Source: Candidatus Kryptonium thompsonii
GTDB taxonomy: Bacteria > Bacteroidota > Ignavibacteria > Kryptoniales > Kryptoniaceae
Reading direction: 5' to 3'
DNA: 64,000 bases
NCBI GenBank assembly: GCA_001442925.1
Contig: LDXX01000003.1
Location: 186,001 to 250,000 of the forward strand
Shown here piece after piece: positions 3,471 through 51,115 of this stretch (position 1 is the stretch's first letter; every line of letters begins with the position of its first letter). Position numbers and translations under genes: made by a program. A model generated the notes under the pieces. The model was not told the DNA's origin, searched no databases, and saw only the letters and a list, made by a program, of their open reading frames with translations.

Positions 3471-4043
3471 ATGCCAGATAAATCTTTAGCTCAACCGCAA
3501 GCAGCAGTGCCACAAGATCAAGTTGAGACGAAACATAAAGGTGCTAAAAAAACAATTTTTCTTGTTTCAATCCCGATTATCATTTTGCAGATTATAATTG
3601 CTTATCTTCTTGTTCTTGATTTGAATTCAAAAACGGCTGTCTCGGATAGCTCACAAAAACAGCCAATGAAATCGCAGATGCCAGCAGAAAAAACAGCCGA
3701 TGAATATAAAATTAGCGAATCTGAATTTGTTGGTTTGCATCCTGAGTTTTTATTCGTCGTTAAAGATTTAATTGTAAATCCAGCTGGAACTGGGGGAATG
3801 AGATATTTATTAACAAGCGTTGGGATAGAAGTGACAAATGAAAAGGCATTTGCGGAGATTCAAAGCAAGGAAATTATAGTGAATGATATCTTGATAAATA
3901 TTCTTTCGAATAAGACGCTCGAAGAATTAAGCGATGTTTCCAAGCGTAAAGATTTAAGAAGGGAGATAGCGAGAAAAGTCGATGATATCTTGACACAAGG
4001 AAAGGTACGAAATGTTTATTTCAGCAAATTTATAATCCAATGA
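3471..4043 (+). CDS. fliL: Flagellar basal body-associated protein FliL
   Basis: A 190-residue protein with a proline/glutamine-rich cytoplasmic start, one membrane segment at about residues 28-48 (KTIFLVSIPIIILQIIIAYLL), and a periplasmic FliL domain. The domain is recognised by RYLLTSVGIEVTNEKA and by the ending VRNVYFSKFIIQ, which matches the family's usual VxxVYFTxFVVQ. FliL sits around the stators of the flagellar motor and supports torque. It is the first gene of a nine-gene flagellar run and is 9 bases from fliM. Confidence 0.92.
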   Translation: MPDKSLAQPQAAVPQDQVETKHKGAKKTIFLVSIPIIILQIIIAYLLVLDLNSKTAVSDSSQKQPMKSQMPAEKTADEYKISESEFVGLHPEFLFVVKDLIVNPAGTGGMRYLLTSVGIEVTNEKAFAEIQSKEIIVNDILINILSNKTLEELSDVSKRKDLRREIARKVDDILTQGKVRNVYFSKFIIQ

Positions 4044-4052
4044 TAAAGAGCA

Positions 4053-5048
4053 ATGCCTGAGATTTTATCACAGCAAGAAATAGACAGCTTACTGGCGGGT
4101 TTTAGCGCTGGGAAATCACCTGGGGAGATAATATCAACGCAGGGAGAAAAAGAGGTTGTCCCATATGAATTTCGTCGTCCGAGCCGTGTTTCAAAAAATC
4201 AGATAAGAACAATTCAAACACTTCATCAAAATTTTGCTGAATCTCTTGGCTATTACCTTACAAGTCGACTTCAAACCCCAGTTTCAATTCAGGTTGAAAA
4301 TGTCGATCAACTTTTTTATTCGGAGTATATACTTTCAGTTGAAAAGCCAAGTGTAATCTTTACGCTTTCAGCTGGTGAAAACAAAGGAGAGTTTATTTTT
4401 GAACTTGGCATTGAGCTTTCGTTTGTGTTGATTGAGAAGTTGCTTGGTGGTGGTGTTGAAATTCCTGAGATTGGAAAGAAGAAAGTTGTAAGGGCTTTGA
4501 CACAGATAGAGCAAAATTTGATCAGAGGCATAGTTGAACGCTCAATTTCTGAGCTTGAGAAAGCATGGGGTATGATCGATTCATTTAAATTTAAAATTGC
4601 AAAGTATGAAAGTGACCCCGACATCGTGCAAATTGCGCCATCAAGTGAAATTGTTCTCGTTATTTCGTTCAATGTCTCGCTCGCTGATAAAAATTATAGA
4701 ATGACCATATGTTATCCTATGTTTGTGATCGAAGATACGCTGACGAAGATGACACTTCAAAGATTTATGGGGGTTAAGAAACATACACCGGAAGAATATG
4801 TGAAATACATAGCCGAAAAAATTAAAACAACAAAAATTCCTGTAAGTGTCGAGCTTGGGCAAAGCGAGGTAACTCTTGCAGATTTGCTAAACCTTGAAGT
4901 TGGAGATATAATTTTACTTAACACGGGTGTCGATTCAGAAGTTAAGGTCTATATTGCTGGTAAGTTGAAACTCTACGGTAAACCTGGAATTTTCGGCGGT
5001 AAAAAGGCGGTAAAAATAACAAGAATTGCAAACAACGAGGAGGGTTAA
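4053..5048 (+). CDS. fliM: Flagellar motor switch protein FliM
   Basis: FliM forms the middle of the C-ring and receives phosphorylated CheY. The N-terminus ([13 protein letters not shown]) is the conserved CheY-binding helix, so this motor should still respond to chemotaxis signals even though no che genes are in the window. The central CheC-like domain spans about residues 45-235 and the C-terminal SpoA domain about 255-325 ([22 protein letters not shown]). Length (331) is usual. Two bases separate it from fliN. Confidence 0.95.
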
Positions 5049-5050
5049 GC

Positions 5051-5419
5051 ATGGAAAAGGAAAAAGCAACAGGGCAAGGGGAAGTTAAAAATGCTGAATT
5101 TCAAAATTTTGAGGGATTAACAACGGAACAAAATTCGCAAACCGAAAAGGTTATTAATAGCAAGCTTGAGCTTTTATTTGATGTAATGTTGCCCGTTTCA
5201 ATTGAACTTGGACGAACATCAATGTTGATAAAAGATATACTTGAACTTGATCGTGGTTCGATAATTGAGCTTGATAAACTTGCAAGCGAACCAGTTGATG
5301 TTATCGTCAATGGTAAAAAAATTGCAGAGGGAGAAGTTGTTGTAATAGATAAACACTTCGGAATTAGAATTACAAACCTTATTGCGGTTGAGGAAAGACT
5401 AAAAAATGTGAAAAGGTAA
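5051..5419 (+). CDS. fliN: Flagellar motor switch protein FliN
   Basis: A 122-residue FliN with a polar N-terminal tail of about 40 residues followed by a SpoA domain ([20 protein letters not shown] ... [13 protein letters not shown]). FliN builds the base of the C-ring with FliM and helps to dock export cargo. The SpoA sequence parallels the C-terminal domain of the preceding FliM. The start is 2 bases after fliM with an AGGAGGG ribosome binding site inside the fliM end. Confidence 0.95.
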
Positions 5420-5420
5420 A

Positions 5421-5771
5421 ATGCTTGGCATCTTAGCAAAGTTGATTCTGTCATTTGCACTTATAATTTCTTTGATGTTTGCGCTTTTATATCTGATGAA
5501 AAAATTTTATCTACCCAATGCGGGTTTTCGGGGTTTCGGAGCCAATATAAAAATCTATGAGAAGTTTCAAATTCAGCCAAGGAAAACAATTTACCTTGTG
5601 AAGGTTATAAACAAAATTTTAGTTTTAGGGATAAGTGAAAATTCTTTTAGTGTTCTAACTGAAATAAGTGAGCCTGAGCTTGTGAGAGCGCTTGATGAAA
5701 TTTATTCTTCTGGAGACGGTAAAAATGGGAAGTTGTTAAATTTAAAGTATGGGGGTGATTTGAGAAGATGA
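5421..5771 (+). CDS. fliO: Flagellar export protein FliO
   Basis: A short protein (116 residues) with one N-terminal membrane segment (ILAKLILSFALIISLMFALLYLM) and a basic cytoplasmic part containing KIYEKFQIQPRKTIYLVKV and KILVLGISE, typical of FliO. FliO is a chaperone-like scaffold for FliP ring assembly. It is identified as much by position (between fliN and fliP) as by sequence, because FliO is poorly conserved. It overlaps fliP by 4 bases. Confidence 0.85.
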   Translation: MLGILAKLILSFALIISLMFALLYLMKKFYLPNAGFRGFGANIKIYEKFQIQPRKTIYLVKVINKILVLGISENSFSVLTEISEPELVRALDEIYSSGDGKNGKLLNLKYGGDLRR

Positions 5772-6529
5772 GGAAACTTGCGTTACCTTTAATTTTCATT
5801 CTTTTAGTTTCAATTGGAAATGCGCAACCAAGTTCGACTGACAAAATCACCTTTCCTGTTCCAAAGATAACAGTTGAAGTTGGAAAGGCGCAGAATTCAG
5901 GTGATCTTGCTGTGACTTTACAAATTTTGCTTTTGATGACGATTCTTTCGCTTGCGCCTGCGATAATCATTTTGACGACATCGTTTACGAGGATAATCGT
6001 CGTTTTCCATTTTTTGAAGCAGGCTTTGGGAGTCCAGCAGATGCCCCCAAGTCAGGTGCTTGTTGGTCTTGCCCTTTTCCTTACATTTTTTATAATGTCC
6101 CCTGTTTGGGATAAAATTAATAAAGACGCATTGCAACCGTATTTGAGAAATGAGATTACGCAAGCCGAAGCGTATGAGAAAGCGATAGAACCACTTCGTG
6201 AGTTTATGTTTAAACAAGTTCGTGAAGATGATCTCGCTCTTTTTGTTTCACTTGCAAAACTCCCCAAACCAAATAATAGAAATGAAATACCAACTTATGT
6301 GCTCATCCCAGCCTTTGCGATCAGCGAGCTTAAAATTGCGTTCCAAATTGGATTTCTTATTTATGTTCCATTTTTGATGATTGATTTGATCGTTGCAAGT
6401 GTTTTAATGTCTATGGGGATGATAATGCTTCCACCTGTGATGATCTCATTGCCATTTAAAATTTTACTTTTCATCCTGATCGATGGATGGCATCTTGTTG
6501 TTCAATCGTTAATTCAAAGTTTTCATTAA
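5768..6529 (+). CDS. fliP: Flagellar export gate protein FliP
   Basis: FliP forms the pentameric core of the export gate with FliQ and FliR. A cleavable signal peptide (MRKLALPLIFILLVSIGNAQ) is present, as usual in FliP. Family signatures are TSFTRIIVVFHFLKQALGVQQMPPSQVLVG (split: TSFTRIIVVFHFLKQALG at about residue 74, then QQMPPSQVLVG) and FLIYVPFLMIDLIVASVLMSMGM-type membrane segments near the C-terminus. Length of 253 is normal. Its ATG overlaps the fliO stop (ATGA), implying coupled translation. Confidence 0.96.
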   Translation: MRKLALPLIFILLVSIGNAQPSSTDKITFPVPKITVEVGKAQNSGDLAVTLQILLLMTILSLAPAIIILTTSFTRIIVVFHFLKQALGVQQMPPSQVLVGLALFLTFFIMSPVWDKINKDALQPYLRNEITQAEAYEKAIEPLREFMFKQVREDDLALFVSLAKLPKPNNRNEIPTYVLIPAFAISELKIAFQIGFLIYVPFLMIDLIVASVLMSMGMIMLPPVMISLPFKILLFILIDGWHLVVQSLIQSFH

Positions 6530-6550
6530 AAATTTATGTGAAAATTTAAG

Positions 6551-6820
6551 ATGACGGAGCAATTTATAATTCACCTTGCGAGGGAGACATTTTTCACGGC
6601 GCTTTTGGTTTCTGCTCCTGTTCTGATAGCTTCGGCGATCGTTGGATTGATAATTTCGATTTTTCAATCGGCAACTTCAATAAATGAGATGACATTAACA
6701 TTTGTTCCAAAGCTTATTGTTATAGCAATTGTCACTGTTATCGCTTTGCCATGGATAATTGATGTTCTCGTCAGCTTCACAAAGGAATTGTTTAACCAGA
6801 TACCAAACATAGCGAAGTGA
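6551..6820 (+). CDS. fliQ: Flagellar export gate protein FliQ
   Basis: An 89-residue two-helix membrane protein. The order helix (LLVSAPVLIASAIVGLIISI) - FQSATSINEMTLTFVPK loop - helix (IVIAIVTVIALPWIIDVLV) is the classic FliQ pattern; the conserved Q-A-T-Q/S-I-x-E stretch is clear. It sits between fliP and fliR as in nearly all flagellar operons. Confidence 0.95.
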   Translation: MTEQFIIHLARETFFTALLVSAPVLIASAIVGLIISIFQSATSINEMTLTFVPKLIVIAIVTVIALPWIIDVLVSFTKELFNQIPNIAK

Positions 6821-6824
6821 TTTG

Positions 6825-7598
6825 ATGGAGTTTTATTTTTCGACATTCTTTGCATTTATCTTGATTTTTGTTCGGGTTTTAAGTTTTCTCTCTGCTTCAC
6901 CTATTTTGGGACATTCCGTCGTACCTTTTCAGTTAAAATTCTGGTTGAGCATTTTTTTAAGCTATATTTTTTTGCTTATAGTTGATGTTGAAAATTTAAA
7001 TCTTTCAGCCGAGTTGCTTGGTTTTATAATCTTGGTTTTGAAAGAGGTTATGATTGGTTTAATACTGGGTTTTTCAGCGTGGGGGATTTTCTACGCCGTC
7101 CAATTTGCAGGTCATTTGATTGGATTTGATATTGGATTTTCAGCATCAACTGCTTTTGATCCTGAGCATTCGGAGCCAATTCCAACTTTGAGCCAGTTTA
7201 AACATTATTTATCACTTGCCATCTTTTTGATGTTAAATGGACATCATTTTTTAATTCAAGTCATCAAGTTAAGCTTTGATATTGTGCCAATTTCATCTTT
7301 TTCTGTAAATGTAGGATTGGTAAATTTTGGCGTTAAATTGATTACATTTGTTTTTGCTTCTGCGGTTAAAATAAGTGCCCCAGCCCTTATCGCTTTGTTC
7401 TTGACGGATTTATCGATTGGGATTTTATCCCGTGCATTTCCGCAAATGAACATTTTCATGTTTGCTTTTTCATTTAAGGTAATTGTTGGAATTATCGCTT
7501 TAATCCTGATGATGCCATTTTTTGTCTTCGTTTTTAAAAATCTTCTTTTTGAGTTCGAGAAAGATCTGCTTGAGCTTTTAAAAGTAATCGGTGCATGA
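6825..7598 (+). CDS. fliR: Flagellar export gate protein FliR
   Basis: FliR completes the export gate as a single copy with FliP5 and FliQ4. The protein is very hydrophobic with about six membrane segments; motifs include FVRVLSFLSASPILGH near the start and SAPALIALFLTDLSIGILSRAFPQMNIF near residue 190-215 (quoted as two parts: SAPALIALFLTDLSIG and ILSRAFPQMNIF). I start at ATG 6825 rather than the adjoining TTG 6822. The stop lies one base before the flhB ATG. Confidence 0.94.
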   Translation: MEFYFSTFFAFILIFVRVLSFLSASPILGHSVVPFQLKFWLSIFLSYIFLLIVDVENLNLSAELLGFIILVLKEVMIGLILGFSAWGIFYAVQFAGHLIGFDIGFSASTAFDPEHSEPIPTLSQFKHYLSLAIFLMLNGHHFLIQVIKLSFDIVPISSFSVNVGLVNFGVKLITFVFASAVKISAPALIALFLTDLSIGILSRAFPQMNIFMFAFSFKVIVGIIALILMMPFFVFVFKNLLFEFEKDLLELLKVIGA

Positions 7599-7599
7599 A

Positions 7600-8679
7600 A
7601 TGGCTGAGGAATTTCAAGAGCGGACGGAACAAGCGACGCCTAAAAGAAAAGAAGATGCAAGGAAAAAAGGAAAGGTTGCAAAAAGCTACGATTTCAATTC
7701 CGCACTTGTTATACTGGCTTCAACTGGTGTATTGTATTTTTGTTGTAACTTCATGTATCAAAAAATTGCAAACTTAACTAAATTTGTTTTATCCAACCTG
7801 CATACGATTGAGATAACCCCCAAAAGTGTCGCTGAGTATGGGTTTTTCATCTTTTCTTTTCTGATGATGAACCTTTTCCCATTGCTGATTTTTCTGACGG
7901 TGATTGGAGTTGGTGCGAACATTGCTCAAACGGGATATATTTTCACGCTTGAGCCGTTAAAGTTTGATTTTGAAAGGTTAAACCCGATCAATGGGATCAA
8001 AAAAATTTTTTTATCGAGGAGAAGTTTATTTGAACTTGGCAAGGGCTTTTTTAAAATCGGGGTAATTGGATTTACCATTTATTTGACGCTAAGAAGCATG
8101 GTCGATGATATAGTGGTTTTAATTGATTCAGATCTTGGAAAGATATCAAGCTTTATGGTTAGCTCAGTTTTTTCACTTATGTTAAAAACGGGGATTGTGT
8201 ATTTTTTGATCGCTGTTTTTGATTTCGCTTTTCAAAAGTGGGAGTATGAACGAGAGTTAAGGATGACGAGACAGGAAGTAAAGGAAGAGATCAAGGAGCT
8301 TGAAGGCGACCCACAAATTAAAGCTCGGATAAGGCGAAAGCAAGCCGAAATTGCAAGAAGAAGGATGATGCAGAATGTTCCTAAATCAGATGTTGTGATA
8401 ACAAATCCAACGCATATTGCTATTGCGCTAAAATATGATTCGGAAAAGATGAACGCTCCAAAAGTCGTTGCGAAAGGGATGAATTTGATCGCTGAAAAAA
8501 TAAAAGAAATAGCGATGAAGCATAAAATACCAATAGTTGAAGATAAACCCCTTGCTCACGCACTTTATAAAATGGTTGATGTTGATGAGGAAATTCCACC
8601 CCAGCTTTATAAAGCCGTTGCAAAAGTTCTTGCCTATGTTTACCAATTGAAAAAGAAAAGTTATAGCGCTGTAAGATGA
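7600..8679 (+). CDS. flhB: Flagellar export switch protein FlhB
   Basis: FlhB switches export from rod/hook to filament substrates. The N-terminus EFQERTEQATPKRKEDARKK is the family signature, followed by four membrane segments and a cytoplasmic domain with the self-cleaving motif N269-P-T-H. Start ATG 7600 was preferred to GTG 7591, which would overlap fliR; the family usually begins M-A-x-E. Length of 359 residues is typical. It overlaps flhA by 4 bases. Confidence 0.95.
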   Translation: MAEEFQERTEQATPKRKEDARKKGKVAKSYDFNSALVILASTGVLYFCCNFMYQKIANLTKFVLSNLHTIEITPKSVAEYGFFIFSFLMMNLFPLLIFLTVIGVGANIAQTGYIFTLEPLKFDFERLNPINGIKKIFLSRRSLFELGKGFFKIGVIGFTIYLTLRSMVDDIVVLIDSDLGKISSFMVSSVFSLMLKTGIVYFLIAVFDFAFQKWEYERELRMTRQEVKEEIKELEGDPQIKARIRRKQAEIARRRMMQNVPKSDVVITNPTHIAIALKYDSEKMNAPKVVAKGMNLIAEKIKEIAMKHKIPIVEDKPLAHALYKMVDVDEEIPPQLYKAVAKVLAYVYQLKKKSYSAVR

Positions 8680-10754
8680 ACGAAAACGGATTTTTACAGA
8701 GTTTAAGTAGAAACAGTGATGTCATCCTTGCAGTTGCGGTAATTTCAATCCTTGTATTTATGATTCTCCCTTTACCGCCATTTCTTCTTGACATCCTAAT
8801 TGCGTTCAATATAACTTTTTCGGTGATCATCCTTTTAATATCGATGTACATAACGAGTCCACTTGAGCTTTCTGTTTTCCCTGGGTTGTTGTTGATCATC
8901 ACGCTTTTTAGATTAAGCTTAAATGTTGCATCGACAAGATTGATTCTTGGGGATGGGTATGCTGGTAAAATAATTTTTGCATTTGGTTCTTTCGTTGTAA
9001 AGGGGAATTACGTAGTTGGTTTTATTGTGTTTTTAATTCTTGTTGTGATACAGTTTGTTGTGATAACAAAAGGAGCCAGCAGAATTGCGGAGGTTGCTGC
9101 CAGATTTACGCTTGATGCTATGCCTGGTAAACAGATGAGCATTGATGCGGATTTAAACGCTGGTCTTATAACTGAGGAAGAGGCTCGGAGAAGAAGGGCG
9201 TTGATCCAGAGGGAAGCCGAATTTTATGGTGCAATGGATGGAGCCAGTAAATTTGTTCGTGGAGATGCGATAGCTGGTTTGATTATAACCGTGATAAATA
9301 TAGTGGGTGGATTGATAATCGGTGTTTTACAACGTGGAATGACATTTACAGAAGCCTTGCAGAATTATGTGCTTCTTACAATTGGTGATGGCCTTGTTTC
9401 ACAGATACCGGCTTTAATTATTTCCATCTCTGCTGGAATGGTGGTGACAAGGAACGCTTCTGGGAATCAATTTGATGTTGAAGTTAAGGGTCAAATTTTT
9501 CAACGTCCTAAGGCATTGCTTATCGCTTCCGGTGTTCTTGCGTTTTTTGCGATTGTCCCTGGGCTTCCAATGTTGCCGTTTTTAATCCTTTCGGTGATAA
9601 GTGGAGTTGCAGGATATTTCGGGACAAAATTTGAAAAAGAGAAAGCGGTAGTTCCGGAAGTTAAACCCAAGGCAGTTGCGCAACCTGAGGAAAAGATTGA
9701 AAAACTTGTTCAAATTGATCCCATCGAAATTGAAATTGGTTACGGCTTAATTCCACTTGCAGATGAAGAACAAGGTGGAACATTGTTTAAGCGAATAATT
9801 GGAGTTAGAAAACAGCTCGCACTTGAGTTGGGCATAATCGTTCCACCAATTAGAGTAAGGGATAACATTTACCTTGAACCAAGTGAATATGTTATAAAAA
9901 TTCGCGGGAATAAAGTCGCAGGCGGTGAAGTTAAACCAGGTTATTATCTTGCTATGAATCCTGGAACAGCCGAAGAAGAAATCCATGATGCAATAAAGGT
10001 TAAGGATCCAGTTTATGGGTTTGATGCCTATTGGATTCCAGCGCACAAAAAAGAAGAAGCTGAAATAATGGGTTATACAGTTGTTGAGCCTGTCTCGGTT
10101 ATTGTGACTCATTTAGTTGAAGTTTTGAGAAAGAATGCGGGCAAGATTTTAAGCAGACAGGACACGAAGACGCTGATTGATAGTTTGCGGGAGGAGTATC
10201 CAGCGCTTGTTGAGGAAATAACTCCAGATGTTTTACCCATTGGAACAATCCAGAAGGTTTTGCAAAATCTTCTCAATGAGGGAATCCCGATACGCGATAT
10301 GGTCACAATTCTTGAGGCGTTGCTTGATTATTCAAGGGTTACGAAAAATGTTGATGTTTTGACTGAGTATGTTCGACACTCGCTTTCAGAAACGATAGCG
10401 AGGCTTTATAGGACTGAAAACAATGTTATACCCGCTATACAGCTTGATCCGAGAATTGAAGATTTAATAACCCAATCGCTTCAGCAGTCATCATCTCAGT
10501 CATCCCCAACGCTTGGGTTACCTCCCGACATTATTCGCGTGTTGAATTTAAGTTTAGCAGAAAATGTTAAAAAGGCGAAAGACTTAGGTTATCGACCAGT
10601 TGTAATTTGTTCGGCAACGGTTCGTTTGTATTTCTATCGTTTAATTCATTCAACATTTCCAGATGTGAGCGTGATTTCATACACGGAGTTGCCAACAGAT
10701 GTTGACATTGAGATAATAGGAAGGATTAAAATTAACAATCACACAAGTTCATAG
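8676..10754 (+). CDS. flhA: Flagellar export platform protein FlhA
   Basis: FlhA forms the nonameric ring that receives export cargo. The N-terminal half (to about residue 325) has eight membrane segments and the FHIPEP-family loop, seen in ARFTLDAMPGKQMSIDADLN and EEEARRRRALIQREAEFYGA-type sequence. The C-terminal cytoplasmic half carries SRQDTKTLIDSLREEYPALV and DMVTILEALLDYSR. Length of 692 is standard. It is the last gene in the flagellar run; flhF, fleN and fliA, which often follow, are not here. Confidence 0.96.
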   Translation: MNENGFLQSLSRNSDVILAVAVISILVFMILPLPPFLLDILIAFNITFSVIILLISMYITSPLELSVFPGLLLIITLFRLSLNVASTRLILGDGYAGKIIFAFGSFVVKGNYVVGFIVFLILVVIQFVVITKGASRIAEVAARFTLDAMPGKQMSIDADLNAGLITEEEARRRRALIQREAEFYGAMDGASKFVRGDAIAGLIITVINIVGGLIIGVLQRGMTFTEALQNYVLLTIGDGLVSQIPALIISISAGMVVTRNASGNQFDVEVKGQIFQRPKALLIASGVLAFFAIVPGLPMLPFLILSVISGVAGYFGTKFEKEKAVVPEVKPKAVAQPEEKIEKLVQIDPIEIEIGYGLIPLADEEQGGTLFKRIIGVRKQLALELGIIVPPIRVRDNIYLEPSEYVIKIRGNKVAGGEVKPGYYLAMNPGTAEEEIHDAIKVKDPVYGFDAYWIPAHKKEEAEIMGYTVVEPVSVIVTHLVEVLRKNAGKILSRQDTKTLIDSLREEYPALVEEITPDVLPIGTIQKVLQNLLNEGIPIRDMVTILEALLDYSRVTKNVDVLTEYVRHSLSETIARLYRTENNVIPAIQLDPRIEDLITQSLQQSSSQSSPTLGLPPDIIRVLNLSLAENVKKAKDLGYRPVVICSATVRLYFYRLIHSTFPDVSVISYTELPTDVDIEIIGRIKINNHTSS

Positions 10755-17922: not shown

Positions 17923-18634
17923 GGTCGTTGTTGTTTTTGCGCTTTTGATTTTTATCGGTTATTTGACTTATAAATTTATCGAGATCGATAGAGAAATTGA
18001 AAACCTCAAATATAGGAATCCAAAATTAACTGCTGTTATGAAGCAACGTATGAGTGAAGCAAAGGGCAAACCTTATCGCATAAACCAGATTTGGGTGCCA
18101 CTTTCAAAAGTTTCACCATATTTGATAGAAGCGGTCATCGTTTCCGAAGATGCGAGTTTCTTTGGTCATCAAGGAATTGATTGGTACGAAGTGAAAGAAT
18201 CGTTTAAGAAAAACTTTCAACGGGGGAGGGTTGTAAGGGGTGCAAGCACGATAACAATGCAAGTGGCGAAAAATTTGTTTCTTTCTACCTCGCGAAATCC
18301 TCTGAGGAAATTAGCAGAAGTTGCAATTGCCCTGAGGATGGAGCAAAAACTTTCAAAAAGAAGAATTCTTGAAATCTATTTAAACATAATTGAGCTTGGC
18401 GATGGGATTTTCGGGGTTGAAGCTGCTTCAAGGAAATATTTTGGGAAGTCAGCATCTGAATTGACAATGGAAGAATCCGCGCAACTTGCCTCTATTATTC
18501 CGAGCCCGCTGAAGCATACTCCAAATTCAAATCATAAGTTTGTCACGCAGAGAACGAGATTGATTTTAAATAGAATGATAGCGAGAGCAAAAATAAAGGA
18601 GGGTGCATCAAATGACTCCCGAACAATTGAGTAG
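17912..18634 (+). CDS. mtgA: Monofunctional peptidoglycan transglycosylase
   Basis: Inner-membrane GT51 glycosyltransferase of about 240 residues with no transpeptidase domain. A single membrane anchor (VVVVFALLIFIGYLTYKFI) is followed by GT51 motifs: EDASFFGHQGIDW (first catalytic Glu), RGASTITMQVAKNLFL, KRRILEIYLNIIELGDG and GVEAASRKYFGK. It extends glycan strands. The ATG at 17912 overlaps the ruvX stop by 11 bases; TTG 17903 is possible but less likely. Confidence 0.92.
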   Translation: MKFKVVVVFALLIFIGYLTYKFIEIDREIENLKYRNPKLTAVMKQRMSEAKGKPYRINQIWVPLSKVSPYLIEAVIVSEDASFFGHQGIDWYEVKESFKKNFQRGRVVRGASTITMQVAKNLFLSTSRNPLRKLAEVAIALRMEQKLSKRRILEIYLNIIELGDGIFGVEAASRKYFGKSASELTMEESAQLASIIPSPLKHTPNSNHKFVTQRTRLILNRMIARAKIKEGASNDSRTIE

Positions 18635-19247
18635 CATCCTATTTGAAGGCGAGGGTTTAACCGTTGAGTTTAAAAGAAAAGTTTCCTCGCCAGAAAAAAT
18701 AGCGAGGGCGATGATTGCCTTTGCGAACACTTATGGTGGGGTTTTAATTTTTGGGATTGATGACGATGGCAGCGTCGTTGGGGTTGATAGTGAAAAAGAG
18801 GAAATTGACTTGGTTTTCACGGCAGCTAAACAATATTGCTATCCGCAAATAGAACCGAAGATCGAGATTCTTGAATTTGAGGGCAAGGATGTGATCGTTG
18901 TAACCATTGAACAAAGCAAAACAAAACCACATTATCTCGTCAGTTCTAACGGTGACGCTGGAAAGGTTTTCATACGGCTTGGTTCGCAAAATGTTATCGC
19001 AAGTGATGAGATGGTAAAACTTTTAGAGTCTGAACAGAACGACCAACCCGTTAGGATATCAATTGGTGAAAATGAAAGGCGCCTTTTAAATTATCTTAAT
19101 AATTTTGGTAAAATCACGGTGAAGGAGTTTAGCAATCTTGTTAAGATAAGTGAAAGTGAGGCAGCTGATATTCTTGTTAATTTCGTGAGGGCGGGGGTTC
19201 TTGAAATTCACATCACGGAGGATGGGGATTATTTTACGCTTGCGTGA
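18612..19247 (+). CDS. AlbA_2 (Schlafen-type) domain protein
   Basis: The N-terminal 120 residues carry the AlbA_2/divergent-AAA signature: EFKRKVSSPEKIARAMIAFA, NTYGGVLIFGIDDDGSVVGV and KVFIRLGSQNVIASDEM. The last 70 residues (RRLLNYLNNFGKITVKEFS ... ILVNFVRAGVLEIH) look like a winged helix, so DNA or RNA binding is likely. ATG 18612 follows an AAGGAGGG site; the gene overlaps mtgA by 23 bases. The final 27 codons occur a second time at 22473-22559, beyond the inserted chemoreceptor. Role unknown; family members range from tRNA nucleases to regulators. Confidence 0.8.
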   Translation: MTPEQLSSILFEGEGLTVEFKRKVSSPEKIARAMIAFANTYGGVLIFGIDDDGSVVGVDSEKEEIDLVFTAAKQYCYPQIEPKIEILEFEGKDVIVVTIEQSKTKPHYLVSSNGDAGKVFIRLGSQNVIASDEMVKLLESEQNDQPVRISIGENERRLLNYLNNFGKITVKEFSNLVKISESEAADILVNFVRAGVLEIHITEDGDYFTLA

Positions 19248-19253
19248 GATGTT
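19167..19253 (+). repeat. Direct repeat A, left copy (3' end of AlbA_2 gene)
   Basis: These 87 bases match 22473-22559 with no gaps and, by eye, five differences, all transitions (left G or C, right A or T). It encodes the C-terminal 27 codons of the AlbA_2 protein plus six bases. The pair flanks the chemoreceptor. Confidence 0.92.
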
Positions 19254-19266
19254 TGAGGTGTCCTAC

Positions 19267-19400
19267 ATTCCATCAGCGTGACCTTCCATTTTTAGGGAAT
19301 TTTTAATCTCTTCGTTTTTGCTAAAGAAATTAAAATTGTTTCCGAAAATAAAGTGTAGAAAAACAAAATAGGACTTGAAGGTTGATATTTATCGTTAAAA
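19267..19400 (+). repeat. Direct repeat B, left copy (trmH 5' remnant plus promoter region)
   Basis: Aligns along its whole length with about 23057-23195, roughly three quarters of positions agreeing by eye (for example ATTAAAATTG, TTTCCGAAAA, GTAGAAAA and GATATTTATCG). It holds a degraded start of the minus-strand methyltransferase, the spacer, and the first codons of the small gene at 23176. In this copy the small gene's ATG is TTG, and the methyltransferase body (about 500 bases) is missing. Confidence 0.85.
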
Positions 19401-19435
19401 TAACGGGAAAATTTTTTAACCCTGTGAAGGCACTG

Positions 19436-22255
19436 ATGCGCCGTATGGATTTCAAGCGACGCATTTTATTTATTGGTGGTGTGTTCATTTTGCCCATTTT
19501 GGTCACTATCTACCAACTGAATATTCGATGGCAGGCGGACATCGCTTTCACCCGGCAGGAACTTAAAGGCACCGAGTGTCTCAGCCCCTTTTTGACTCTC
19601 ATCCAGCACGTCCAACAGCATCGCGGTTTAGCTCAGGGGTTTCTGTCAGGTGATGCGTCTTTTGGGACGACGATGCAGCAAAAGCAATTGGAAATAGCCG
19701 ATGACTTAAGAGCCATTGACACTGTGATGGCAAAATACGGCGACGAATTCAAACTTAAGGATAAATGGGACGCTATCAAGCAAGAATGGCAAACACTGCA
19801 AAGCCAAGTGGAACGGCTGTCCCGCACTGAGAGTTTTCAGCGGCACACTGAGTTGATCAAAAGAATTCTTAGCCTGCGCCAAGATATTGCTGATGCGTCC
19901 AGTCTGAGCCTTGACCCCGAAATAGACACCTACTACTTGATGTTGGCAGTCGTCCAACACCTCCCCGATGTCGCTGAGCAAATGGGACAAGCAAGAGCAG
20001 AAGGCACTGGGGCGCTGGCGGACAGAAAGTTGAACACCGAAGAGCGGATGAAATTGACCATTTTTTATGAGTTAGCGTCACAGCAAAAGTGGCGCGCCTT
20101 GGCGGGCTTGGAGCGGGCAATGAATTATAACGCGCAATTGAAAAACCGTATTGAGCAGGCGGTGCACATGGCGCAGGAAAAAATCGATGCTTTCTTGAAC
20201 CTGCTTAACGAACGAATTTTGCAATCGACTCAACTCAACCTGTCGCCACAAGAGTATTTCACTGCGGCGACGACCGCCATTGATGCTTCGTTTGACTTGA
20301 CCAAAACCCTTTCAGTGGAACTGAACAGCTTGCTGAATGACCGCATTCAAAAACTTGCCCATAAATGGATAGTGCTAATAGTGGTTGTCATTGTTCTTGT
20401 TGCATTAGCGTTTGTATTGTTTATTGGCTTTTACACCGCCACAACTGAAGGAATACAGCAAGCCATCAGCAATGCACATAAGTTAAGCGACGAAGTATTT
20501 CCCGAACTAGCTGCGGCACTTCAACACTTGGCGCAGGGCGATTTGTCCCATCGCGTTAGTGTTGCTATTGAGCGGGTTGTGTTAAGTAAATTAGATAAAA
20601 TTGATAACACGGAAGAAGGGCAACTGTTGCGGGCAGCAGCACAACTTGCCGACAGTGCACAAATAATAGTAGATTCTTACAACACTTCATTGAACCAGTT
20701 AGCTCAACTGATCACTGAGGTCTCTCAAGTTATTGGTCGTCTCAGCGAAGTTAGTGCGCAAATGGTGACGGCTACACAACAAGTTAGTGATGCTATTACT
20801 CAAATCAGTAGCGCCACCCACCAAAGTGCACAAGGTGCAACTGAACAAGCAACGGCAATTGCTCACATTCGGACAGCATTTGAGCAATTGAACAAAGCAG
20901 TTGAAAGCATAGCAAGTGGTGCATATGAACAAGCTGAACTTGTGAACAAACTTTCTAATGCTTCGAACAGGATCAAACAAACCTTATCCTCATTTACTCA
21001 GGTAGTTTCAACAGGGGTTTCCGCTGCTTTTGAAGCACAGCAGGTAGCATCCTCTAACTCACAAAGGCTAAAACAAATGCTCTCTGCTATGGAAGCGATA
21101 AGAAACGCTGTTGAAATCGCAAGACAACAAGTTGAGGGAATGAACCGATCGATGGCGGACATCGGAGAAATCGTCAACACAATAGCTGACATTGCGGATC
21201 AAACGAACCTTTTGGCATTAAACGCAGCTATAGAAGCAGCAAGAGCAGGGGAACAAGGGAGAGGGTTCTCCGTCGTTGCTGACGAAGTTCGCAAGTTAGC
21301 CGAGAGGTCGGCACAAGCGACGAAAGAAATTGCAAATTTGATAGCCAATATTCGAGAAGGAGCAAAAGAGAGTGTAAATGCAATGGAAGTTACATACAAA
21401 CAAGTTACGGAAAGCGCTGCAGCAGTTGGAGAAGCAAAACAAGCATTAGAAAACATAATTGAGGCGGTCAGGAAGGTTCAGGAACAAAGTGGTAAGCTAG
21501 AGGAAGCAAAGGAAGAAATTTCACAAGCGTTAGAGCAAGTTTTTGGAGTGGTTCAGAGTTTGTCGGCGATAGCGGAGCGAAATGCTTCTGCTACTGAGGA
21601 GTTGGCGACGAGCACTGCAGATATGAATGAGCAAATTCGCAGCGTTGCTTTGGTAAGTGAGCAAACATCTGCTGCTATGGAGGAAATCTCTGCCTCTACA
21701 GAAGAGGTCAGTGCACAAGTGAGCCAACTCGTGGAAAACATTGAAACGATTTTAGCTGACGGACAGAGAATAATGGCATTAATTTCTCAATTTAAACTTG
21801 GTGTCTCTGGAAAGACAAGAACATTGCCCAAAGTTGTTTGGGATAAAACCGTTGAGGTCGGTGAAGCCACAATTGATAACCAGCACCGTTTACTTTACGA
21901 TGCTATTAACAGGTTAGGTGAAGCCATTTCAAAACGGGATGAAGTGGGTTTGATTGACACCGCGACATTTCTTGAGCGATATGTGCAAGAGCATTTTAGG
22001 TATGAAGAGGGTTGCTTTGAACGTTGGGAATGTCCACTGGCAGCACAAAATAAAGATGCTCATGAAAAGTTTGTCAAAGCCTTTTTGTTGATCAAAGAGC
22101 GAATGAATAGCGGCGAGTTATGGAACGCAGCGCTGGACTTGCACAAACTCTGTGCCGACTGGTTACCCAACCACATCCGACGAATTGATCGGAAATGTGG
22201 TGAACATGCCTTAAAGCTGAACAGACAAACGACGCAGTTGGTTGGCAACCTTTAA
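19436..22255 (+). CDS. Methyl-accepting chemotaxis protein with C-terminal hemerythrin domain
   Basis: A chemoreceptor of about 939 residues. In order: membrane segment ([20 protein letters not shown]), a helical periplasmic sensor of about 285 residues that resembles NIT-type modules ([14 protein letters not shown]), a second membrane segment ([20 protein letters not shown]), HAMP, a long signalling coiled coil with the tip [19 protein letters not shown], and a C-terminal hemerythrin domain ([36 protein letters not shown]) whose His/Glu ligands for a di-iron site are all visible. It could sense O2 or redox in the cytoplasm. Base and codon use are more GC-rich than in the neighbours, mainly in the first third. 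ATG 19436 has an AAGG site; the frame extends to TTG 19382, but those 18 codons come from repeat B. No che genes are nearby. Probably acquired by transfer. Confidence 0.9.
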
Positions 22256-22472
22256 ACAGTAACACCTTTGGAGCACAAATTAGATGCCGAGACTGGTGAA
22301 TTTGTTGCTAACAACTAAAAGCGACGGATACTTAGCATCGCTGAGATGTTAATGGGTCTAGTATGGAAAAAGCGCTCAGTATTGGCTATGAAAGGATCTC
22401 CGATTTTATGTTAGGAAAATCGTTGGGAGAACAAAGAGTAGCGTGGGTGAAGTTGGCTAAGGCGAAGCATTT
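22256..22472. other. Gene-free tail of the inserted segment
   Basis: Between the chemoreceptor stop and repeat A (right) there are about 217 bases with no open frame of note, no inverted repeats at the ends and no recognisable transposase remnant. It is probably downstream donor DNA brought in with the chemoreceptor. Confidence 0.5.
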
Positions 22473-22559
22473 GATATTCTTGTTAATTTCATGAGAGCGG
22501 GGGTTCTTGAAATTCATATCACGGAGGATGGGGATTATTTTACACTTGCATGAGATGTT
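22473..22559 (+). repeat. Direct repeat A, right copy (AlbA_2 3' fragment)
   Basis: An 87-base near-copy of 19167-19253, starting abruptly inside the coding frame. It encodes the same C-terminal residues as the AlbA_2 gene (one V to M change) but has no start. Its last 25 bases also encode the end of the minus-strand methyltransferase, suggesting that the two genes originally overlapped tail to tail before the insertion. Confidence 0.92.
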
Positions 22560-23086
22560 CTATAAATTTTTACCAGTTCATAAACTGCTATACCGTATGC
22601 CACTGCTACATTTAGTGAATGTTTTATTCCAAATTGTGGTATCTCAATGGCTAAATCACACATCGAAAGAACCTCATCAGAAATTCCCGTGATTTCATTA
22701 CCTATGACAAGGCAAAGTGGAAAATCTTCAGGCTTTATTTCGTAGTAGGGTATGCTATCGTCAGTTATTTCAAGGGCGATGATTTTCACATTTTTCTCTT
22801 TCAGTTCTTTTATGATGTCAACTGGATTTTTGTGATATTCCCAAGGAACGCTTTCAATTGCACCAAGAGCTGTCTTTTCAATATCTTTTCTTGGTGGATG
22901 CGGAGTATAACCCGTAAGGTAAAGTTTTTTTATAAGTGCAGCATCACTTGTCCTAAAAATTGAACCAACATTATAGACGCTTCTTATATTATCAAGCAAA
23001 ACATAAATTGGGTGTCGCTCGATTGTTTTCAATTCTTCAATTGTATGTCTTTTTCTCTCAATTTCAATCGGCGTGAGCTTTCGCAT
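22535..23086 (-). CDS. TrmH/SpoU-family RNA 2'-O-methyltransferase
   Basis: A 183-residue SPOUT enzyme. Motif 1 is LLDNIRSVYNVGSIFRTSDA, motif 2 PLCLVIGNEITGISDEVL and motif 3 IEIPQFGIKHSLNVAVAYGI, which form the knotted SAM-binding site; the Arg in motif 1 and Asn in motif 3 are catalytic in the family. Substrate (tRNA or rRNA) cannot be told. Its last codons lie inside repeat A, and a degraded start of a second copy occurs in repeat B at about 19270-19290. Confidence 0.92.
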   Translation of the reverse strand: MRKLTPIEIERKRHTIEELKTIERHPIYVLLDNIRSVYNVGSIFRTSDAALIKKLYLTGYTPHPPRKDIEKTALGAIESVPWEYHKNPVDIIKELKEKNVKIIALEITDDSIPYYEIKPEDFPLCLVIGNEITGISDEVLSMCDLAIEIPQFGIKHSLNVAVAYGIAVYELVKIYRTSHASVK

Positions 23087-23195
23087 TTCGGGAATTTTAA
23101 CTTTTGCAGTTTTTGTTAAAGTAATTAAAATTGATTTCCGAAAAAAGGAGTAGAAAACAAAAATAAATCTTGGAAATGATATTTATCGCTGAAAC
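23057..23195 (+). repeat. Direct repeat B, right (presumably original) copy
   Basis: Covers the start of the methyltransferase gene, the 90-base divergent spacer and the first codons of the small gene at 23176. It is matched by a diverged copy at 19267-19400 just ahead of the chemoreceptor. Confidence 0.85.
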
Positions 23196-23397
23196 AAAGG
23201 ATAACAGATTGGTAATTTTCGGCAACGAAGGGAAGAAATACTTTTACATAGAATTCACCGAAAATATCGAAAATCCAAAGATAGAAAAATTTAACCTTGA
23301 GCAAAAAGCTTTGCTTGAGCTCCTCGAAAAGAACCTTGACCGCTATTGTCAGAAGGGATTGAATATCGTCTTTGAAAAAATGTTCGAATCAGATTAG
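23176..23397 (+). CDS. Small hypothetical protein
   Basis: A 73-residue acidic protein starting MIFIAETKDNRLVIFGNEGK. No family recognised. ATG 23176 is preferred to TTG 23170. The divergent spacer before it and its first codons are the part duplicated ahead of the chemoreceptor. It converges with and overlaps the thioredoxin gene by 4 bases. Confidence 0.6.
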   Translation: MIFIAETKDNRLVIFGNEGKKYFYIEFTENIENPKIEKFNLEQKALLELLEKNLDRYCQKGLNIVFEKMFESD

Positions 23398-28330: not shown

Positions 28331-28747
28331 TTATTTTATCGCAAAGCTTAAAATTGCCCACATAGCGGTTATAATTAAAGTTGTAAAGGCAATGAATAAT
28401 CCAATCATCCACTTTATTAAACTTACTCTTAGGTTGTCCATCTTTTCATAAAGTTCAGTTCTCACAGATTCAATCTTTCCATAAAGCTCAGTTTTTGCAG
28501 ATTCAATTGCTCTATAAAGTTCAGTTTTCGTGGACTCAATCTTTTCATGAAGTTCAGTTTTCGTTGATCCTATATTTTTGTGAATTTCAGCTTTATCGGA
28601 CTCGTTTTTTTCATATAAGTTGCTCAACCTCTTGTCAATATATTCAAGCTTTCTATCAATTTCGTCAAATTTTTTGCCGATGATTTCATAGACGAACAAT
28701 TCAAGTTTTGTGATTCGTTGTTCTAAATTTTCTAAGGAAGTCGCCAT
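28331..28747 (-). CDS. Coiled-coil protein with 11-residue repeats and C-terminal membrane anchor
   Basis: 138 residues, in the middle of the oxidoreductase operon (4 bases after the alpha gene, 21 before the beta-gamma gene). Residues 58-112 are five tandem 11-residue units: NIGSTKTELHE, KIESTKTELYR, AIESAKTELYG, KIESVRTELYE, KMDNLRVSLIK. An 11-residue (hendecad) period gives a nearly straight or right-handed coiled coil. Residues 113-135 are a single membrane segment (WMIGLFIAFTTLIITAMWAI). No enzyme motif. It may tether the oxidoreductase to the membrane; this is inferred from order and topology only. Confidence 0.8.
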   Translation of the reverse strand: MATSLENLEQRITKLELFVYEIIGKKFDEIDRKLEYIDKRLSNLYEKNESDKAEIHKNIGSTKTELHEKIESTKTELYRAIESAKTELYGKIESVRTELYEKMDNLRVSLIKWMIGLFIAFTTLIITAMWAILSFAIK

Positions 28748-43037: not shown

Positions 43038-43562
43038 ATGAAAAAAGTTTTTATTGACCCTTCAAGATGCACGGGGTGTAAAAGTTGTGAGATAGCATGT
43101 GCTGTGGAACATTCCATTTCAAAAGATATTTATAAAGCAATTTTTGAGGAACCTCGCCCGCCGAGATTTAACAGCGTTTTAAAGTTGGATGGATTTATCG
43201 CTTCTTTGCGGTGTAATCATTGTGAAGACGCCCCATGTGTTGCTGTATGTCCGACCTCCGCAATTTACAGAGATAGCGAGACAAATCTTGTGGTATATAA
43301 CAACGCAAAATGCATAGGTTGCTGGCAGTGTGCGATGGCTTGTCCATTTGGAGCAATTTATCCTGACATTGAAAGAAAAGTTGCAAGAAAATGTGATGGA
43401 TGCAATGATAGAGTTAAAAGTGGTATGATTCCAGCTTGTGTTGAAGCATGTCCAACAAATGCTTTAATTTATACGGATGTTTCAACCCTTGAACATTTCA
43501 AGAGGATATCAACAATTTCATCGCTTTCAAAATCAACGAAAACTTATATGGAGGTAATCTAA
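43038..43562 (+). CDS. cooF: CooF-like polyferredoxin, electron carrier for CO dehydrogenase
   Basis: 174 residues with four [4Fe-4S] cysteine groups: CTGCKSCEIAC, CNHCEDAPCVAVCP, CIGCWQCAMACP and CDGCNDRV...CVEACP. This is the CooF/HycB/DmsB-like arrangement. It lies one base ahead of cooS and would take electrons from the CO dehydrogenase B/D clusters and pass them to the flavin enzyme or to the membrane. First gene after the sigma-54 promoter. Confidence 0.9.
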   Translation: MKKVFIDPSRCTGCKSCEIACAVEHSISKDIYKAIFEEPRPPRFNSVLKLDGFIASLRCNHCEDAPCVAVCPTSAIYRDSETNLVVYNNAKCIGCWQCAMACPFGAIYPDIERKVARKCDGCNDRVKSGMIPACVEACPTNALIYTDVSTLEHFKRISTISSLSKSTKTYMEVI

Positions 43563-43563
43563 A

Positions 43564-45534
43564 ATGGGGGACATTTTAAAAGATAAAGAAAGAGTTTGGG
43601 ATAACAAGTCAAATGATTTTGGTTTACTTCCACCTTCAAATGTTGAACTTTTGAAAAAGCAAGCAAAAGAGGTTAAGACAACATCATTGCAAAGGTTAGC
43701 TTTACAGGAGCCTCAATGTGGTTTTGGGGAGCTTGGAGTATGTTGTAGAATGTGCTATATGGGTCCGTGTAGGATTGATATTTTTGACGGCGGTCCAAGG
43801 GTTGGGGTTTGCGGTGCGACGGCAGATACAATTGTTGCAAGGAATCTTTTAAGGGAAACGGTTGGCGGTGCTGCAGCACATACGGAGCACGCAATGGATA
43901 TAGCGGAGGTTTTAAAAGAAGTTGCAGAGGGGAAAATTTCAACTTACACGATTAAAGATGAAGAAAAACTGAAAAGAGTTGCTGAAAACCTTGGGATCAA
44001 AACGGAAGGTAAGGATATAAAAGAAATAGCGAAAGAAGTTGCTGAGATTTCGCTTGAAGATTTCAAACGGCTTGAGAGGGAACCAGCTGTTTGGATTAAG
44101 GCGTATACTCCGAAGTCAAGTTATGAACAGCTTGAAAAACTCGGTGTAATTCCGCATAATGTTTGGCGTCCGATAATGAATGCGATGCATAGAACAAGTA
44201 TGGGCAACGATGCTGACCCTGTAAACATAATGCTTGCAGATTTGCAGATGGGACTTATTGATGGACTTGGTTTGACGATGGCAACTGAACTTTCGGATGT
44301 TATCTTTGGGACGCCAAAGCCGATAAAAAGTAAAGCAAATCTTGCGGTAATTGATCCAGACTATGTTAATATCGCTGTTCACGGGCATAATCCCTTGCTC
44401 TCTGAGAAAATTGTTGAATGGGCAGAAAAATTAAATGATAAAGCAAAATCGCTTGGTGCGAAAGGAATAAATATAGTCGGTGTTTGTTGCACGGGTAACG
44501 AGGTCTTGATGAGACATGGTGTTCCTTTGGCTGCAAATGAATTTCAAGCTGAGCTCGCTATAGTAACTGGGGCGCTTGAAGCAATGGTTGTTGATTATCA
44601 ATGCATATGGCCAATTTTAAGCGATGTTGCATCTTGTTATCATACGAAACTTATAACGACAATGCCATTTGTTAAAATACCTGGCGCAATTCATATTGAA
44701 TATTCACCTGAAAAAGCTGATGAAGTTGCTCAAAAAGTTATTGAAACAGCCCTTGAAGCGTATAAGCAAAGAGAACCAAGCAGGGTTTTCATCCCTGATT
44801 CACCTGAAGAGATTATAGCTGGATTTTCTGTTGAGGCATTAATTGAGGTTTTGAAAAAAGTTAACCATGAAGATCCGCTGAAGCCTTTGATTGACAACAT
44901 TGTAAATGGGAATATATTTGGTGTTGTTGCGATTGTAGGTTGTCCGAATCCAAAAACGAGACGACTTGCTTTTGCTGAGAGAATGATAAAAGGCTTGATC
45001 AAGAACAATGTCCTTGTGATTGTAACCGGTTGTATTGCTCATATTGCAGGTCAGGCTGGGTTTTTGAATCCGAATAAAGTTGATTCGTTTGAAGTTGGCG
45101 ATGGTTTGAAACAGGTTTTGAAAGCGCTTGGAAATGTCGCTGGTTTGAATAGCTTGCCTGTGGCAATTCATATGGGTTCATGTGTTGATAACTCAAGGAT
45201 TGGGGTTTTGCTCAAAGCTTTATCTGAAAAACTTGGGTTGAAGGTTTCGGATTTACCCGTTGTCGCTTCTGCACCCGAATTAATTTCTGAAAAAGCGATT
45301 TCAATTGGAACATGGGCGCTTGCGCTTGGTGTGACAGTTCATGTTTGCCCACCGCCGAGAATTTTAGGTGGTCCTAAAGTTAGAGAGATATTAACTAAAG
45401 ATTTGAAGGCATTGACAGGTGGGGAAGCGTATGTTGAGTGTGACCCAGAGCTTGCGGTTAAAGGAATTCTTGATAGAATCAAACAAAAGAGAATCGCTTT
45501 AAATCTTCCAGTCCCTGAGGCGGTTCATATTTAA
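43564..45534 (+). CDS. cooS: Anaerobic Ni-Fe carbon monoxide dehydrogenase catalytic subunit
   Basis: Oxidises CO with water to CO2, two electrons and two protons. 656 residues. Cysteines for clusters D and B are at 52, 60, 61, 64, 69 and 83; their spacing (8, 1, 3, 5, 14) equals that of Rhodospirillum rubrum CooS. Cluster C ligands are visible in AVHGHNPLLS (His), GVCCTGNE, VVDYQCIWP, IVGCPNPK, VTGCIAHIAG and HMGSCVDNSR. So the active site is complete. No acetyl-CoA synthase genes and no hydrogen-evolving Coo hydrogenase are nearby, so CO is more likely an electron donor than a carbon source. Followed by cooC. Confidence 0.95.
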   Translation: MGDILKDKERVWDNKSNDFGLLPPSNVELLKKQAKEVKTTSLQRLALQEPQCGFGELGVCCRMCYMGPCRIDIFDGGPRVGVCGATADTIVARNLLRETVGGAAAHTEHAMDIAEVLKEVAEGKISTYTIKDEEKLKRVAENLGIKTEGKDIKEIAKEVAEISLEDFKRLEREPAVWIKAYTPKSSYEQLEKLGVIPHNVWRPIMNAMHRTSMGNDADPVNIMLADLQMGLIDGLGLTMATELSDVIFGTPKPIKSKANLAVIDPDYVNIAVHGHNPLLSEKIVEWAEKLNDKAKSLGAKGINIVGVCCTGNEVLMRHGVPLAANEFQAELAIVTGALEAMVVDYQCIWPILSDVASCYHTKLITTMPFVKIPGAIHIEYSPEKADEVAQKVIETALEAYKQREPSRVFIPDSPEEIIAGFSVEALIEVLKKVNHEDPLKPLIDNIVNGNIFGVVAIVGCPNPKTRRLAFAERMIKGLIKNNVLVIVTGCIAHIAGQAGFLNPNKVDSFEVGDGLKQVLKALGNVAGLNSLPVAIHMGSCVDNSRIGVLLKALSEKLGLKVSDLPVVASAPELISEKAISIGTWALALGVTVHVCPPPRILGGPKVREILTKDLKALTGGEAYVECDPELAVKGILDRIKQKRIALNLPVPEAVHI

Positions 45535-45552
45535 AATAATTTTGGTTGGCTG

Positions 45553-46440
45553 ATGCCATTTACAACAGCGAGCGAAGAAGAAAGGGATTTAATTGTAAAA
45601 GAAGTTTTGGCAAAGATTCCGCAAGTTGAGGAAAAAGTTGAATCTGGCGTGAGAATAGTTGTCACTGGGAAAGGAGGTGTTGGCAAGACTGTTATATCCG
45701 CTGTTCTTGCTCATTTATTGGCTGATGCAGGTTTTAATGTTCTCGCTGTTGATGAGGACCCACAAATGAACCTGCCTTTTGCGCTTGGTTTGCCATTTGA
45801 TGAAGCCGAGGCGATAGTTCCATTAAACAGACAGCTTGATTACATTGAGGAGAAAACTGGGGTTAGACCTGGGTCTGGGTGGGGTTTGTTTTTCAAGTTA
45901 AATCCAGATGTAAGCGATGTAGTTGAGAGATTCGGAATTAGGGTGAAAGATAGATTAAATCTTCTTGTAATGGGAACAGTTATGCAACCATCGATTGGAT
46001 GTGCTTGCCCTGAAAATGATTTGCTTCAAGCGGTTGTAAACTATATAAATCTTCGCAAAGGTGAATTTATCATTATGGATACCGAAGCAGGGCTTGAACA
46101 TTTTGGAAGGGCGATCGCCAAAGGATTTCATCACGCCATCATTATTTCTGAACCTACATTTAATTCAATTTATGTTATGAGACAAGCGGTGAAACTTGCG
46201 AAGGGGCTTGGGATTAGGAACATTCATCTTGTTTTTAATAAAGTTAGAGATGAAGAAGAGAAGGTAAGACAATTTCTTTCCAAGTTTGAAGCTGAATTTT
46301 CAGGATTGCCCGTTTATTTTTTGCCTTATGATGAAAATATCCAAAAAGCTGAGCCATCAGTTCAAACGATCTTGGAGAATGGAGCAACAAAGTTTGTCGA
46401 TGCGGTTATGCAGATTTTAAAAAATCTACTTCAAGATTAG
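45553..46440 (+). CDS. cooC: CooC-type nickel-insertion ATPase
   Basis: 295 residues. The P-loop is the deviant Walker A GKGGVGKT at 39-46, followed by VDEDPQMNLPFALGLP, the metal-binding C-A-C pair at 150-152 (GCACPENDLL) and EAGLEHFGRA. CooC dimers load Ni into cluster C of CooS. The protein has about 32 extra residues before the P-loop strand (EERDLIVKEVLAKIPQVEEK), whereas most CooC start right at it. Four bases separate it from the next gene. Confidence 0.92.
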   Translation: MPFTTASEEERDLIVKEVLAKIPQVEEKVESGVRIVVTGKGGVGKTVISAVLAHLLADAGFNVLAVDEDPQMNLPFALGLPFDEAEAIVPLNRQLDYIEEKTGVRPGSGWGLFFKLNPDVSDVVERFGIRVKDRLNLLVMGTVMQPSIGCACPENDLLQAVVNYINLRKGEFIIMDTEAGLEHFGRAIAKGFHHAIIISEPTFNSIYVMRQAVKLAKGLGIRNIHLVFNKVRDEEEKVRQFLSKFEAEFSGLPVYFLPYDENIQKAEPSVQTILENGATKFVDAVMQILKNLLQD

Positions 46441-46443
46441 AGA

Positions 46444-47685: not shown

Positions 47686-47757
47686 GAAATACATTAAAGT
47701 TACGGCACCTGAGGAGAAACGGTCTCGTGAGTTATCAATTAAAATTTTATTCGTGCA

Positions 47758-48225
47758 TTGACGAAAGGTTTTTTTGAAAAAATTGAGACAAAAGAGTTTA
47801 CGATGGAAGATATTGATTGCGTTTTGAAGATTCAAGAAGAGTTGAAAAAGAGCAATAGTTATAGCTTCCTTTGTGATAAGATGTTTATCGAGGTTTTGAA
47901 TGAACTTCAAAGTTCTGGGTCTTTATTTGGTAGGATTGCTTACATTGGCGATAAGCCCGTTGGTTTAATTTTTGGAGATACTCGGCCGAAGTGGTATAGT
48001 GGGCCCGAATGTGGGTGGTTAATTGCGATTGTTGTTTTACCAGAGTATCGAAGGCAGGGTGTAGGTAGAAGACTTATTGCTGAGTTTTTTGATAAAGTCA
48101 GGGAGCTTGGTTTGAGAAAAGTATGTGCTATGGTTGAATTTGCTGATGAGGAAACGCTTGCGTTTTTGCGGAAGATGGGTTTTAAGCGAGGTAAGCTTGT
48201 TTATTTTGAAAAACAAATTTATTAA
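47758..48225 (+). CDS. GNAT-family N-acetyltransferase
   Basis: 155 residues with the acetyl-CoA loop VVLPEYRRQGVGRRLIAEFF and a final FLRKMGFKRGKLVYFEK strand. It looks most like RimI/peptide-type GNATs, target unknown. The start is doubtful: TTG 47758 gives a full N-terminal strand, ATG 47803 would cut it off. It lies between the CO and hydrogenase genes on the same strand (gaps of 72 and 18 bases). Confidence 0.8.
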   Translation: MTKGFFEKIETKEFTMEDIDCVLKIQEELKKSNSYSFLCDKMFIEVLNELQSSGSLFGRIAYIGDKPVGLIFGDTRPKWYSGPECGWLIAIVVLPEYRRQGVGRRLIAEFFDKVRELGLRKVCAMVEFADEETLAFLRKMGFKRGKLVYFEKQIY

Positions 48226-48243
48226 ACAAAGGAGGTTTAAAAG

Positions 48244-49353: not shown

Positions 49354-49356
49354 AAA

Positions 49357-51093: not shown

Positions 51094-51115
51094 AAACAAA
51101 TTTGGTGAAAGCAAA

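Follow-up and report, generated by a model that had tools for sequence, protein, structure and literature searches.

Foreign DNA can be added to a genome without a transposase by homology-facilitated illegitimate recombination, in which homology acts on one side and an illegitimate join is made on the other (PMC3240628). In Streptococcus pneumoniae, uptake of partly matching DNA leads to tandem duplication (transformation-triggered merodiploidy) at existing repeats (PMC3784515). For the protein considered here, the closest described systems are DcrH of Desulfovibrio (PDB 2avk, 2awy), which is also a chemoreceptor with a C-terminal hemerythrin and provides the best solved relative of that domain, and the NIT-domain chemoreceptors (PF08376), in which, as here, a NIT region is followed by the signalling domain. 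We analysed a chemoreceptor locus in a 64,000-nucleotide stretch of Candidatus Kryptonium thompsonii (contig LDXX01000003.1), referred to as the window, to which all coordinates apply. An earlier note on this DNA had described the chemoreceptor as lying between two copies of the local sequence, and the layout we obtained agrees with it:

18603–19247, + strand: AlbA_2 (Schlafen AlbA_2) gene, complete, its 3′ end duplicated (Pfam PF04326, 5.5e-28); intact in sisters
19167–19253, + strand: left copy of repeat D1, the AlbA_2 3′ end; 94.3% identical to 22473–22559
19254–19404, + strand: left copy of repeat D2, a residual trmH start, the spacer and the small gene's first 8 codons; ~70% identical to 23045–23198
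19382–22255, + strand: putatively acquired chemoreceptor, 957 codons, GC 0.456 (Pfam/NCBIfam matches, homologue N-termini, GC z 3.34)
22256–22472, + strand: tail of the putative foreign segment, GC 0.42, no family match; its last ~16 nt may still be AlbA-derived
22473–22559, + strand: right copy of D1, an AlbA_2 3′ end fragment that overlaps the trmH 3′ end
22535–23086, − strand: trmH-like SpoU methylase, complete (PF00588, 1.9e-33)
23045–23198, + strand: right (native) copy of D2, the trmH start, spacer and small gene start; conserved in sisters
23176–23397, + strand: native small gene of unknown function, its ATG ATA TTT ATC start conserved in sisters

For the small gene, the ORF lister had used an upstream TTG start at 23170. 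Elsewhere in the window, a tandem array of 33-bp repeats (~5 units, 62–74% alike) was seen at 28448–28612, and a prismane/CO dehydrogenase family protein is encoded beside a ferredoxin-like gene and a nickel hydrogenase large subunit (43038–52320), which suggests CO- or H2-linked metabolism.

The two repeats were clearly above chance and differed in their degree of preservation. D1 is identical at 82/87 positions (101 bp at 90% under looser ungapped extension), and scores 448 in local alignment against a shuffle mean of 115 (sd 17); the window contains no other long two-copy repeat of 60 bp or more. D2 (about 19256–19404 versus about 23045–23198) extends over ~140 bp at 70–74% identity with small gaps, comprises the N-terminal codons of trmH, the spacer and the first eight codons of the small gene, and scores 407 against a shuffle mean of 148 (sd 19). 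Between them, the left copy lacks ~490–500 bp of trmH (22560 to ~23045), as the earlier note had estimated. The repeat of the trmH start and spacer that it had described is likewise present, but has diverged far more than the AlbA copy and continues into the small gene start in frame with the receptor; that fusion and the discordant divergence of the flanks are what the earlier note missed. DNA search of the species' own genome gave no other copies of the block.

The unequal preservation of the flanks constrains their history. Within the genome, 5/87 positions differ in D1 (all five changes being G/C to A/T) against 42/139 in D2 (p = 4e-6), whereas the AlbA tail and the spacer show similar divergence from one species to another (for example, 77% and 82% for relative L003, 80% and 75% for L004), so one duplication with uniform decay fails to explain the locus. 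Three histories could account for the mismatch: recombination may have homogenised the AlbA repeat, the one stretch in which an exchange brings back both genes; this repeat may be the younger of the two; or the left spacer may stem from another source, such as a related donor. The two flanks thus do not show an equal apparent age, for which later conversion could account. The two AlbA copies also have 7 bases in common that no sister has, which places the origin of the AlbA flank in the species' own lineage or a near-identical strain. To the left of 22473, ~16 nt fit the genus consensus (GAAGCAT) better than the species' own AlbA_2, which hints at either homogenisation or a related donor for the left spacer. 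AlbA homology reaching well beyond this was considered on the basis of a gapped extension (score 109 versus a null maximum of 88) and rejected, as a profile search reached only 22457; left of that position the profile found no AlbA homology on its own, and we limit the claim to the ~16 nt.

The earlier note had suggested comparing the locus with sister genomes, and this comparison was informative. Of the six other genus members, five have AlbA_2 next to the trmH–small gene flank, with neither the receptor nor duplicated blocks; the sixth assembly is 71% complete and gave no match at the locus. In all five sisters, the 3′ ends of the convergent AlbA_2 and trmH genes overlap by exactly 19 bp, and the site rebuilt for our species shows this too: dropping 19254–22559 restores the intact locus exactly, in the ancestral order (AlbA_2, trmH, small gene) already proposed. 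An insertion with flanking duplication leaves copies of one segment on either side of the insert, while the locus stays uninterrupted in relatives; both features are seen here, and the empty sister loci support an insertion into the lineage of this species. Formally, the receptor could instead have been lost from all other genus members, a less economical history in which the two repeats would also have had to resolve cleanly.

We next consider the receptor's origin. Its GC content (0.456) is 3.3 sd above that of the other long ORFs of the window (0.379 ± 0.023; z 3.34), and the tail up to 22472 likewise exceeds host spacers in GC content; the ORF in this tail (22363–22494) had no Pfam match. 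A matching NIT sensor was absent from six other genus members and thirteen other members of the order (19 genomes), while relatives of the sensor were found in 17/296 phylum genomes, its own included, at 30% identity at best. The closest of these (L026) is without the hemerythrin tail. A donor search across genome contigs, viral contigs, plasmids, phages, and 296 phylum and 391 class genomes returned no match to the sensor above ~30% identity. Receptors from the order that have an equally long hairpin (L046–L052) were examined as a source and rejected because their sensor parts are unrelated; these proteins, from a sister family, are ~850-aa receptors with a 185-aa arm and a sensor part resembling a periplasmic sugar-binding protein. 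As no donor was found, foreignness rests on patchy distribution and composition, that is, on absence from close relatives and atypical GC, both of which were observed. On these grounds we regard the receptor gene as foreign; the duplication that came with its insertion left the two overlapping genes complete.

The left junction indicates how the receptor gene came to be read. Homologues start with MNLFAPAIYLMNRLKYP, which the receptor matches through a 15-residue stretch located just after a leader, LIFIVKIT. This leader matches, in frame, MIFIAETK of the small gene (codons TTG ATA TTT ATC GTT AAA ATA ACG in the receptor, ATG ATA TTT ATC GCT GAA ACA AAG in the small gene). Because these eight codons are equivalent to those that start the small gene, the receptor frame begins in a copied small-gene start region, and the copied promoter and start region probably drive its transcription and translation. 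An internal start at ATG 19436 or 19445 is possible instead, and a join would be in frame by accident with a chance of 1 in 3.

As a whole, the locus is best explained, and in our judgement probably, by a foreign receptor, a partial local duplication, an in-frame join and an AlbA repeat that is either homogenised or later. A foreign chemoreceptor gene with ~200 bp of downstream DNA would have entered the species, and its integration would have come with partial duplication of the stretch from the AlbA_2 3′ end through trmH and the spacer to the start of the small gene. On the left side, the receptor would have been joined in frame ~8 codons into the small-gene copy, after which this copy would have lost its spare trmH body while its spacer diverged strongly. 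The 87-bp AlbA repeat would be a remnant that RecA-type conversion homogenised, the two direct repeats being 3.3 kb apart, or else would have arisen by duplication at a later time. The likely route would be either natural transformation with RecA-mediated pairing on one side and illegitimate joining on the other, or one crossover with a circular or ligated molecule. The genome encodes a DNA uptake channel of the ComEC type and gives only a sub-threshold match to DprA, and Ku was not found in it, which favours uptake and RecA-type recombination over Ku end joining. Since the convergent genes overlap by 19 bp and offer no neutral site between them, insertion without duplication would truncate one or both, and only an event that duplicates the AlbA_2/trmH overlap would leave both whole. 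This accounts for the survival of the arrangement rather than for its mechanism. The earlier note had offered a large duplication, or homologous flanks from a related genome; acquisition with duplication is supported by the five empty sisters, whereas an origin in a related genome is not supported for the AlbA flank, given its 7 own-lineage bases, and is no more than possible for the spacer flank.

Transfer from a related species is a less likely account, the best placed of those that we weighed against this one. A donor in or near the genus would have had the receptor fused behind its own trmH–small gene spacer, and the block would have been added beside the recipient locus, making the left D2 donor DNA and the AlbA repeat a product of the junction or of later homogenisation. 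At 70% identity, the left D2 has diverged from the native copy by as much as separate species have (70–82%); it sits on a long branch (0.54) with no firm placement in the tree, and the consensus-like ~16 nt left of 22473 point the same way. Against this, the native copy is by a small margin the best match to the left D2, ahead of every sister (15 sites are common to these two copies only, against 7 common only to the left D2 and the nearest sister), a D2–receptor fusion was found in none of the relatives among seven genus genomes, and the receptor itself has foreign GC. We consider it doubtful that a 3.2-kb block (left spacer, receptor and tail) instead entered a staggered break in AlbA_2 recently and in one piece, with the 87-bp repeat as a target duplication made by gap repair and the likeness of the spacers predating the insertion. 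The exact restoration of the locus on removal of 19254–22559 and the little-diverged D1, with its uniform G/C to A/T changes, would suit such an event, but the incoming DNA would need a second, unexplained copy of the neighbouring spacer, Ku was not found, and ordinary transposon target duplications are far shorter than 87 bp. An insertion sequence or transposon was rejected: as already reported, no transposase family was seen among the block genes and no inverted ends at the junctions. It is improbable that the receptor is an excisable cassette in a mixed population, its AlbA repeats kept alike by ongoing recombination and an exchange between them restoring both overlapping genes exactly. Finally, an assembly error that joined two strain haplotypes or a contaminating contig is unlikely and the least credible reading of all. 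The genome is in 18 contigs, but the locus is found 205 kb into a contig of 342 kb, and the assembly is 98.5% complete and 1% contaminated; the copies differ by 6–30%, which repeat collapse would not yield, and the receptor frame runs uninterrupted across the left junction.

With the receptor taken as a foreign gene joined to a duplicated flank, we assessed what it might do in its host. The protein consists of the small-gene leader (about codons 1–8), a NIT sensor (73–312), a degenerate HAMP-like stretch that was detected weakly, an MCP signalling domain (549–728; PF00015, 1.7e-45) and a hemerythrin (about 820–942). The 27 residues of the hairpin tip are identical in the acquired and native receptors, as befits an MCP. 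From tip to end, the C-terminal arm measures 185 aa in the acquired receptor versus 143 aa in the native one, a difference of 42 aa, or six heptads; the acquired receptor does not match the hairpin length class of the resident array, as it would need to for array sharing, not for MCP status. PMC5907407, citing Herrera Seitz 2014, reports that receptors of unequal length (36H and 40H classes) do not enter the same array, so the acquired receptor may or may not couple to the only CheA, and may not share the native receptor's array. The hemerythrin (window 21818–22252) scores 87.7 bits against TIGR02481, above cut-off, and 79.5 bits against NF033749, just below the cut-off of 84. Aligned with DcrH by that protein's iron-ligand numbering, this domain keeps six ligand positions and has one His replaced by Asn, a change that could alter the di-iron site. 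The host genome has a CheW domain in a CheW protein and another in a CheA, two in total, and one chemotaxis cluster (MCP, CheW, CheR, CheY-like proteins, CheZ, CheA and CheB). Genes for FliL, FliM, FliR, FlhB and FlhA lie at 3471–10751 of the window, ~9 kb upstream of the inserted receptor. Judging from the flagellar genes, the host is probably motile, and together with the CheW and CheA domains and the full che cluster they give an extra receptor a possible output. The 957-codon frame is intact, and the receptor is probably functional; that the frame stayed intact while the flanking copies decayed suggests that it is under selection.

The locus offers a snapshot of a foreign gene settling in a tight cluster without a mobile element: two genes with overlapping 3′ ends are preserved by duplication, and the acquired gene probably makes use of a copied promoter and start codon region. 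It also provides a worked case for the spread of receptors between lineages and for whether a resident array can employ a receptor of another length class. Set against the known systems, the acquired receptor differs from DcrH in having a NIT domain as its sensor and Asn at one of seven iron-ligand positions where DcrH has His, and it is at most about 30% identical to the NIT-domain chemoreceptors found. The duplicated unit is about 0.74 kb, versus ~100–900 kb in S. pneumoniae merodiploidy. The addition resembles homology-facilitated illegitimate recombination in being transposase-free; here the end product alone is seen, either side may have been the homologous one, and the copies of the flanks have since come to differ to unequal degrees. 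Transposase-free acquisition with flanking duplication and in-frame leader capture is a further case of a known process and an ordinary trace of horizontal acquisition.
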